Below, one piece after another: positions 29,853 through 33,241 of a DNA stretch of 38,675 nt. This stretch comes from Candidatus Levyibacteriota bacterium (lineage in GTDB: Bacteria; Patescibacteriota; Microgenomatia; Levybacterales; UBA12049): positions 1-38,675 of the forward strand of contig JACQHJ010000003.1 of NCBI GenBank assembly GCA_016199085.1. The letters are read 5' to 3'. Made by a program: the position numbers and the translations under genes. The first letter of the stretch is position 1; each line of letters starts with the position of its first letter. The notes under the pieces are model-generated. The model did not search any database. It saw nothing but the letters and a program-made list of their open reading frames with translations, and had not been told where the DNA came from.

Positions 29853-30236
29853 TTAACCGGGGACGTAGCGGCAGACCGAATGAATTCTGACTCTATCTCC
29901 CGCTCTTGTTACTGCATCAAAGATACAAACAGGTGGAGAATCTTTGGTAATTGGAAATACACTGATTTCATGCCTTAACGCAACATTAGAACCAGGCTGC
30001 ATATCTTCAAGTCTATATGTTTCATACCTAGGAGATCCATCCATACCAAGTACGACCCTATGAAACGTATTTCCCGTAGTTATCTCAAGCCTACCCTCTA
30101 CTGTGTCGTTTGGCCCGAGAATTTTAGGTGCTGTTTTGCCATAATATCTCCCCTCTGCAATTTCTCTTGCAATATGATCTACCCTTTCAATAGGTACGAT
30201 AAGAGAAGGTATTAATCGAATGTTTTCTATAGGCAT
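29853..30236 (-). CDS. Hypothetical protein (127 aa)
   Basis: ORF with own promoter; no family recognised (MPIENIRLIPSLIVPIERVDHIAREIAEGRYYGKTAPKILGPNDTVEGRLEITTGNTFHRV...). Confidence 0.7.
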   Translation of the reverse strand: MPIENIRLIPSLIVPIERVDHIAREIAEGRYYGKTAPKILGPNDTVEGRLEITTGNTFHRVVLGMDGSPRYETYRLEDMQPGSNVALRHEISVFPITKDSPPVCIFDAVTRAGDRVRIHSVCRYVPG

Positions 30237-30316: not shown

Positions 30317-30390
30317 GCCGCCATCGTCTAGTGGCCTAGGACGTCGGATTCTCATTCCGAAAATCGCGGGTTCAACTCCCGCTGGCGGTA
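30317..30390 (+). tRNA. tRNA-Glu (anticodon CTC)
   Basis: GCCGCCA...TGGCGGT acceptor stem (G-U at 1:72), anticodon arm TCGGA-TTCTCAT-TCCGA, T arm GCGGGTTCAACTCCCGC; CCA not encoded. Confidence 0.95.
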
Positions 30391-30542
30391 CTCAATGGGA
30401 TAGCGACCCAAAAAGCTTTCTTTTAGCCTCGAATTAAGGTTCGACCTAAAATTTAATACTCCTGAGGTCTTGAAGCTAATTTGATTTGACGTCAATGGGA
30501 ATCGAAACCAGAATAGGGTTCTTGACTTTTCACAATGTTCCT

Positions 30543-30609: not shown

Positions 30610-31212
30610 TTAATGGATTAAGGGTTTATCAGTCTCACTTACAACGTCATACCAGATATTAGGCAGCATAACGATATTATCCCTTACCTCTACCCGTCTA
30701 ATCTCCTGTTTGTCTCCGTTTTGATCTTCTATAGACACTGTTGCAGTTTCAAACTTAGGCGTTTTGTACTCAAAAATTACTCTTTGTATATCCGATGCAT
30801 TTAATGTTCCTTCATCTTCTAATCCAACTGCTATTGCATTAATCTCATCTTTTTTGGCGGCTGCGGCAATTCTTGCTGGGCCAATCAACGAATCAGGATT
30901 ATAGCCCATTGCCCAAACAATGTTTAAGTCATGCGATGTTCCCCGAGGACCTAAAACAGCATGGGGCCCAACTGCTGCTATAGGGTCCGGTCTCCCATCG
31001 GGTTCTGTCGTCCCTAAAGCATTACCACTTGGAATAATAGTTGCTTTTTTTGTTTTTCCCAAAGCAGTATGTATTCCTTCATGAATAGCAACTTCATCCT
31101 TGGGTAATCTTTTTGGCATTAGGTTTTCACCTTTTGCAGTTAAGATCATGTTGTTTATCACAAACCTTTTATCTATGCCAAAATTCATTCCAGCCTCAAT
31201 TAGTCTATTCAT
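30610..31212 (-). CDS. Stand-alone peptidase M41 (FtsH protease domain)-like putative metallopeptidase
   Basis: KDEVAIHEGIHTALGKTKKATIIPSGNALGTTEPDG contains HExxH plus TIIPxGxALG; followed by GTSHDLNIVWAMGY matching the FtsH GAsNDlkxATxiA third-ligand region. No Walker motifs, no TM segment. ATG at 31212 preferred over TTG at 31218. Confidence 0.65.
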   Translation of the reverse strand: MNRLIEAGMNFGIDKRFVINNMILTAKGENLMPKRLPKDEVAIHEGIHTALGKTKKATIIPSGNALGTTEPDGRPDPIAAVGPHAVLGPRGTSHDLNIVWAMGYNPDSLIGPARIAAAAKKDEINAIAVGLEDEGTLNASDIQRVIFEYKTPKFETATVSIEDQNGDKQEIRRVEVRDNIVMLPNIWYDVVSETDKPLIH

Positions 31213-31220
31213 GGTCAAAT

Positions 31221-31248
31221 TTTATAATTTTTAGAGGTTAAATTGCAA
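31221..31248 (-). promoter_or_regulatory. Candidate promoter of the M41-like gene
   Basis: Minus strand TTGCAA (31248-31243), N16, TATAAA (31226-31221), 8 nt before ATG 31212. Confidence 0.5.
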
Positions 31249-31254
31249 ACTAAA

Positions 31255-31476
31255 CTATATCCCAACAGGAGGTCTATGACTTGTCCTTCCACTTGATGAA
31301 AGAAGACGCGTTAATCTTCTATCATTTTGCACTATTCCTGCCCTATATTCTCTCCACTCTCTTCTTTCTCCTTCTGTACGAAAATCATGCCTTACATAAA
31401 TTCTGAAAAAATCTTTTACCTGTTGAGGGGGAGATGGAATAATATCTCCACTGCAAGTTTCAATAATTGCTGACAT
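31255..31476 (-). CDS. Hypothetical small protein (73 aa)
   Basis: MSAIIETCSGDIIPSPPQQVKDFFRIYVRHDFRTEGERREWREYRAGIVQNDRRLTRLLSSSGRTSHRPPVGI; start at 31476 supported by promoter position. Confidence 0.6.
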   Translation of the reverse strand: MSAIIETCSGDIIPSPPQQVKDFFRIYVRHDFRTEGERREWREYRAGIVQNDRRLTRLLSSSGRTSHRPPVGI

Positions 31477-31482
31477 GGTTTT

Positions 31483-31510
31483 AATATACACCCTTTTATT
31501 GGCTTGTCAA
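31483..31510 (-). promoter_or_regulatory. sigma70-like promoter of the 73-aa ORF
   Basis: Minus strand TTGACA (31510-31505), N16, TATATT (31488-31483), 6 nt before ATG 31476. Confidence 0.65.
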
Positions 31511-31513
31511 TAG

Positions 31514-33241
31514 TTAGCCAAAGGTAAATGCAAAAGCTTGTATGCCACTATCTTCAAATTCAAGTTTTAAAATATGCGTTCCTGTATTTCCTTTTAAATC
31601 AATAATGTTATATAACCTGTCTGTATCTATTGTTATTTCTCCGTCTTTAACATCAGTTCCAGCATTTTCCTCATCAACCAACTTACCATCTAGAAAGACT
31701 TTTACTTTTGAACTTTTATTAATACCCGGTCTTAGAACCAAAAATACTTTATCTGCATAAAAATTGTAATTCAAAACGCTGTCTTTTATTGTTACCGCGT
31801 TTTCATCTTCAATCCTCCATCCCCCTGAAAGACTAAAAGTATTTGGAGAAAGGTTTTCAGATAGGGCTAAATCGTAAGAACCGCTGACAAGATTACCTGA
31901 AGGGTAATAATACTGCATTCTTTTGGAACCTAAATAAGTTTCTGGAGAAAGTCTGGTAGTTGGTGTCTCATCTGGCATTTCTTCAATTTTTGTACTAATA
32001 TTTTTTCCAGCCTGTTTTAGAAGAAGCTGAATAGCCATTTCCATTTCTTCATACTCACCCTCTCCGAAATGAAACTTTCTGATATTGCCATTAGTATCTA
32101 TTAAATACTTTGCCGGCCAATACTGGTTTGAATAATTTTCCCAGGTCGCATAATCATTGTCTTGGGCGACAGGATATGTAATATTGTATTGTTTAATTGC
32201 ATTTTCAACGTTTTTTGTATCTTTTTCAAATTCAAACTCAGGAGTATGAATTCCAAGTACGACAAAGCCTTCATCTTTGTATTTTTCATACCAGCTTGTT
32301 ACATGCGGGAGAGTCCTTATGCAGTTAATACACGTATATGTCCAGAAATCTACCAAAACAACCTTTCCTTTTAAGTCTCTTAAAGTTAAAGGCTTGGAAT
32401 TTAACCAGTTACTTATTCCAATAATTTCCGGTGCTTTGACGTTTACGTTTAGAAGTCCGCTTGTATCCGGAATAATTGAGGTCTTATTATTTTTAATTAA
32501 ATCAAGCTCCTTTTTTACGCTTTCATTACTTTCAAGACTGACGATAAAATTGCCGTATGAGGGGAAAAGATCTAAAAGCTTTGCCTGCAAAACCTTGTCG
32601 TAATTTGTGGCAATTAAAACTGCAGAAATAATCATAACTACTCCGAAAATCTGCTGAATTCTTCCCGTATATTTTGATAAAACTCTGGATCTTGTAAAAA
32701 TATGCTTCCCAAGAGTTGCAAAAATAAAAAGAGGGATACCTACTCCCAAGATGTAGAAAAAAGTTACCAAAAAGATTCCTAAGTTAACTGACCCTGTTGC
32801 GGCCAGAGTTGCAATAGTTGCAAGAATCGGTCCTGCACAAGGCGTCCAGACAATACCCAGTGAAAGACCTGTGATAAAACCAGACCAAAAACCAGGATGA
32901 TTTGAAGTACCTACAAAATTAAAGTTAGAACTAAGTCTACTGACAAAACCTTCGAGTATTTGGGAGAGTTTTGGAATAATAAGAGTAAATCCTAAAAGCC
33001 CTATTATAAAAACCGCAAAGTATCTTAAGATTTCAGGATCAAACGGAATAATCTTTACAATATAGGAAATACTTAAAGTTAAAAGGCCAAAGGAAAGCAT
33101 AATTCCAAGAGTGATTCCCAAAGGTTTTCTATGACCGCCAGTTGTAGTTGAAGACAAAATTATTGGAAGAAGCGGCCATATGCATGGCGCAAATATAGTA
33201 ACCAAGCCTGATATGAAAGCGAAAATAAAGAGTATTCCCAT
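31514..33241 (-). CDS. DipZ-like protein: CcdA-type membrane domain + TlpA-like thioredoxin domain + C-terminal DipZ-type domain
   Basis: CcdA motifs APCIWPLLPI and GIVWTPCAGPILA; thioredoxin LVDFWTYTCINCIRTLPHVTSWYEKY; C-terminal LRPGINKSSKVKVFLDGKLV. Confidence 0.9.
   Translation of the reverse strand: MGILFIFAFISGLVTIFAPCIWPLLPIILSSTTTGGHRKPLGITLGIMLSFGLLTLSISYIVKIIPFDPEILRYFAVFIIGLLGFTLIIPKLSQILEGFVSRLSSNFNFVGTSNHPGFWSGFITGLSLGIVWTPCAGPILATIATLAATGSVNLGIFLVTFFYILGVGIPLFIFATLGKHIFTRSRVLSKYTGRIQQIFGVVMIISAVLIATNYDKVLQAKLLDLFPSYGNFIVSLESNESVKKELDLIKNNKTSIIPDTSGLLNVNVKAPEIIGISNWLNSKPLTLRDLKGKVVLVDFWTYTCINCIRTLPHVTSWYEKYKDEGFVVLGIHTPEFEFEKDTKNVENAIKQYNITYPVAQDNDYATWENYSNQYWPAKYLIDTNGNIRKFHFGEGEYEEMEMAIQLLLKQAGKNISTKIEEMPDETPTTRLSPETYLGSKRMQYYYPSGNLVSGSYDLALSENLSPNTFSLSGGWRIEDENAVTIKDSVLNYNFYADKVFLVLRPGINKSSKVKVFLDGKLVDEENAGTDVKDGEITIDTDRLYNIIDLKGNTGTHILKLEFEDSGIQAFAFTFG

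Follow-up and report, generated by a model that had tools for sequence, protein, structure and literature searches.

We found a small gene in a genome of Candidatus Levyibacteriota that encodes a free-standing relative of the FtsH peptidase domain. By computational analysis, the encoded protein (P0001) is homologous to the M41 peptidases and has the M41 fold and conserved metal-site residues, with neither the AAA+ motor nor the membrane anchor of FtsH. P0001 is probably a compact, soluble, ATP-independent zinc peptidase, where the binding of zinc, the proteolytic activity, the cellular location, and the type of substrate are all predictions. These are the gene and its parts within the window (the whole 38,675-nucleotide stretch of DNA that we analyzed):

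31219-31224, minus strand: -10-like box, TAAAAT, 6 bases 5' of the ATG
30610-31212, minus strand: stand-alone M41-like metallopeptidase gene (200 amino acids plus a stop codon)
31069-31083, minus strand: HEGIH (residues 44-48), with two predicted zinc ligands and the predicted general base, in predicted helix 40-51
31000-31053, minus strand: beta hairpin TKKATIIPSGNALGTTEP (residues 54-71), the counterpart of TIIPRGxALGxT in FtsH
30910-30936, minus strand: helix 93-101, starting from SHDLN, with Asp95 as the predicted third zinc ligand
30763-30897, minus strand: C-terminal helices of the M41 core (residues 106-150)
30646-30744, minus strand: variable beta-strand tail (residues 157-189), a low-confidence part of the model (pLDDT of 43-63 by block)

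A first-pass annotation of this DNA had proposed the open reading frame without giving its strand. The frame is real and lies on the minus strand; as we read the window, it starts with the ATG at 31212. The genome has one copy of this short M41-like gene.

Active-site residues

The first-pass annotation had described an HExxH motif followed by an FtsH-like TIIPxGxALG segment, and both are present (HEGIH and, at residues 58-69, TIIPSGNALGTT). It had also proposed the aspartate of an HDL motif as the third zinc ligand. That residue is Asp95, within HDLN, and it is invariant in 18/18 relatives. In established FtsH structures, the third zinc ligand lies at the start of a helix, and Asp95 similarly lies at the start of a predicted helix. 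Across the alignment of 18 relatives (27% mean column identity), just five columns are invariant: Glu45, His48, Gly67, Gly91, and Asp95. His44 is kept in 17 of the 18, and so is an intact HExxH. The exception, L010, has YEAEH instead and, judging from its sequence, may be inactive.

Other parts of FtsH are missing or altered, much as the annotation had it. Pfam finds no AAA+ domain in P0001, where just 43 residues precede HExxH. There is no transmembrane segment (the maximum Kyte-Doolittle mean over a 19-residue window is 0.57), and no signal peptide is evident. The GGRxAEE segment is absent, and the short clade has an AAVGPHA-type sequence in its place; GGR.AE is conserved in the local FtsH. 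The spacing after HExxH is shortened as well. As taken from the alignment (as it was for several other proteins), the distance from the second histidine to the aspartate is 46 in P0001. The short family as a whole has about 45-53 and the local FtsH has 70-71; other stand-alone relatives fall in between, at about 58-66. In E. coli FtsH, this spacing is 74 (PMC11266112). Because GGRxAEE is missing and the interval is about 25 residues shorter, the geometry of the active site may differ from that of FtsH.

These changes raise the question of whether P0001 is a protease at all. It could instead be a zinc-binding, non-proteolytic derivative that acts as a regulator, an adaptor, or a decoy, and its partner or substrate might be FtsH itself. 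The loss of GGRxAEE and the shortened interval would fit, the YEAEH of L010 indicates that the family tolerates the loss of a ligand, and inactive M41 proteins do exist: the FtsHi proteins of plastids are pseudo-proteases that kept the AAA+ motor and lost active-site residues (PMC11266112). But all 18 relatives have Glu45, a residue that catalysis requires and metal binding does not. Also, FtsHi proteins have lost most of their active-site residues (PMC11266112), while the short family keeps them. FtsHi and P0001 are both M41 homologs with altered sequences, but P0001 is the reverse case, with the motor absent and the active site kept. We consider a non-proteolytic role to be unlikely. Similarly, the annotation had suggested a catalytically altered derivative as one option; this is disfavored for P0001, given that the catalytic glutamate, the second histidine, and the aspartate are invariant. 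Its first option, a soluble ATP-independent relative of M41, is supported by the homology, the fold, and the absence of a motor and a transmembrane segment.

If P0001 is an active peptidase, then His44, His48, and Asp95 would bind one zinc ion, as in FtsH, and Glu45 would be the base that activates water. The hairpin after HExxH would form the substrate-binding edge, again as in FtsH. With no AAA+ domain, anchor, or evident signal peptide, P0001 would be expected to act in the cytoplasm and without ATP. It would act on peptides, on disordered stretches, or on a single specific site that is exposed, but not on folded proteins.

Sequence and structural evidence for M41 homology

The sequence of P0001 gives a weak signal when it is analyzed alone. 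Residues 38-69 match Pfam's M41 model (PF01434) with E = 0.11 and 12.8 bits, which is below the gathering cut-off of 29.9; among the 18 members, the best E value is 3e-5. So by that model P0001 is a homolog of M41 but not a formal member of PF01434. As a single sequence, P0001 has no match in NCBIfam or in a scan of genome contigs, and a phmmer search of the PDB ranks unrelated proteins at the top. Because the single-sequence signal is so weak, reading the motifs required homologs. (P0001 has no match to defence families. Residues 140-183, in the tail, weakly match phrog_7942, with E = 0.0012, and this match is absent from the other members.)

Profiles give a clear answer. First, when the 18-member profile was compared to the entire PDB, the top 13 chains were all FtsH or YME1 (E = 1e-4 to 7e-3), and the next hit had E = 0.17. 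Second, profiles built from 10-15 homologs match the M41 domains of FtsH in many genomes, and the 15-homolog profile matches FtsH throughout the phylum, with E values down to 2e-8. Third, the real 18-member profile scores 23.2 bits on FtsH, compared to a maximum of 10.2 bits in 100 shuffles of its columns. Fourth, hhalign aligns the family profile to the local FtsH from HExxH to ALGxT (probability 93%, E = 2.7e-7). In the PDB search, the alignment to YME1 is co-linear, running from HExxH to ALGxT and then through the last helices of M41. The first-pass annotation had likened EDEGTLNASDIQRVI, which sits within the last helices of the P0001 core, to the C-terminal helix of FtsH. The co-linearity with YME1 (profile positions 111-147 align to YME1 394-430) speaks for this, but this part scores just 2.7 bits when taken alone.

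We also predicted the structure with AlphaFold2, from six sequences, two of them partial. The mean pLDDT is 72.8. The core (residues 41-150) is mostly confident, with means of 91-96 for ten-residue blocks over residues 41-140 (except for 72 at residues 61-70), and the N-terminus and the tail are poorly modelled. The predicted structure has the M41 fold: when it was compared to the PDB with Foldseek, ranks 1-47 were all FtsH or M41 proteins (FtsH, YME1, AFG3L2, and FtsHi), with E values from 1.8e-4. By query length, the TM-scores are about 0.33-0.44, which is modest, and the rmsd across the full aligned length is large; both reflect the shortened core and the poor quality of the model at its ends. 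The first-pass annotation had named two outcomes that would count against its reading, a predicted structure unlike M41 and a loss of HExxH among close homologs, and neither one was observed.

Alternatively, P0001 might belong to a different group of small zincins (an ImmA/IrrE-like protein, for instance, or a mini-zincin) and have come to resemble M41 convergently in the region of HExxH. Motifs as short as HExxH occur widely, and two members of the family weakly match Pfam's M50 profiles (best E = 0.038). However, all of the significant matches, by sequence or by fold, are to FtsH, and the TIIPxGxALGxT hairpin and the downstream helix with G-x-x-x-D are features of M41. This explanation is very improbable.

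Comparison to known M41 proteins

P0001 shares HExxH, the TIIPxGxALGxT hairpin, the downstream aspartate ligand, and the fold with FtsH, YME1, and AFG3L2 (PF01434). It differs from them in lacking AAA+, the transmembrane segments, and GGRxAEE, in its histidine-to-aspartate spacing (46 instead of 70-74), and in scoring below Pfam's cut-off. The first-pass annotation was right that M41 is normally fused to AAA+, though stand-alone M41 proteins are already known from plants and phages. VIR3 from Arabidopsis (At1g56180) belongs to the metalloprotease superfamily and is an HExxH protease without an ATP-binding domain; its function requires its HExxH, and the abundance of its binding partners varies inversely with its own (PMC9166295). 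Unlike P0001, VIR3 is a plastid protein with transmembrane segments and with HEAGH at 235-239, and we liken the two by description. In a fold search of a viral library, the matches include FtsH proteins and two short stand-alone proteins. These two are A0A6J5RJ76 (a 214-residue phage "Peptidase M41 domain-containing protein") and I4AZJ7 (230 residues, unnamed); both are similar in size to P0001, at 11-16% identity to it. A partial literature search found no paper about stand-alone M41 proteins from Patescibacteria.

Genomic surroundings

The gene is flanked by a 78-residue open reading frame on one side and a tRNA on the other. Nearby are:

29853-30236, minus strand: second small open reading frame (no match in Pfam)
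30317-30391, strand opposite to the M41-like gene: tRNA-Glu
31255-31491, minus strand: the 78-residue open reading frame (no match in Pfam)
31514-33241: DsbD/thioredoxin gene, beyond the 78-residue frame

A comparison of gene neighborhoods found no partner gene that is shared across the loci of the family. One relative, L108, shares with the window the DsbD/thioredoxin block upstream of the gene, and L117 shares with the window a glycosyltransferase/membrane block and Lon that flank the gene. These common blocks suggest vertical inheritance, not a functional pair.

A -10-like box lies 4-13 bases upstream of 19/24 genes in the family, compared to 43/118 control open reading frames (P = 2e-4, Fisher's exact test). 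A box this close to the ATG suggests, from sequence, that each gene of the family has a leaderless transcript of its own.

Distribution and evolution

Among 73 genomes of the same taxonomic family, we found 9 relatives, with 23-35% identity over the alignment. There are further relatives in the order and the class; those with names are from Levyibacteriota, Daviesbacteria, and other Microgenomates, which by relatedness places the host in the class Microgenomatia of the Patescibacteria. The distribution is patchy, with strong members in 13 of 374 sampled genomes of the class. In a partial sample of the phylum, strong matches were confined to this class, nearly all of the other matches were the size of FtsH, and no member of the short family turned up in any other class. 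Searches of phage records and of viral contigs gave no relatives.

Could the gene be a functionless, degraded fragment of FtsH, given that the resemblance is limited to the protease part? This idea is refuted by conservation across genera and has almost no chance of being correct: the open reading frame is intact and a promoter-like box marks a start region of its own, homologs of mostly similar length are found in at least 17 other genomes from several families, P0001 is far from the local FtsH in a tree, and FtsH is encoded elsewhere in the genome. Since that separate FtsH is full-length, with a normal M41 domain, the short gene is neither the sole copy of the protease nor half of a split FtsH.

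A tree of 36 sequences separates the short family from FtsH with good support and puts stand-alone proteins with longer inserts in between. (Many branches are long, so the placement among FtsH proteins is only indicative.) We tentatively suggest, at somewhat less than even chances, that Microgenomatia have an old and undescribed family of minimal M41 peptidases that work without ATP on a dedicated substrate of their own, with graded intermediates to FtsH in the histidine-to-aspartate spacing. If so, these proteins might qualify as a new peptidase family on the M41 branch. In any case, they show the protease domain of FtsH in a shortened, free-standing form, probably as an enzyme, in genomes of about 1 Mb that still have a full FtsH. 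Curated libraries miss this short family, which offers a small and tractable M41 protein for testing what the peptidase domain does without its motor.

Some other stand-alone relatives have distinctive features. L035, L036, L037, L059, L063, and L064 are longer M41-like proteins (about 240-350 amino acids); several have HEL.H, and most have a cysteine-rich, zinc-knuckle-like tail at the C-terminus (CxxC...HxxxC). L060, L061, and L062 (about 146-245 amino acids) are stand-alone M41 proteins that keep a GG-x-x-A-like segment and are intermediate between FtsH and the short family.

Finally, in the genome's own FtsH (G000:C2, L125:3-3029), the AAA domain is split by an intein-like insert with LAGLIDADG-like stretches. 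The borders of the insert are GVGA|SVTGDTPILIKQ ... LLHN|SRVRDLF. FtsH frames of 1047-1082 amino acids from other Microgenomatia (G187, G199, G144, G154, G227, and G066) may contain the same insert.
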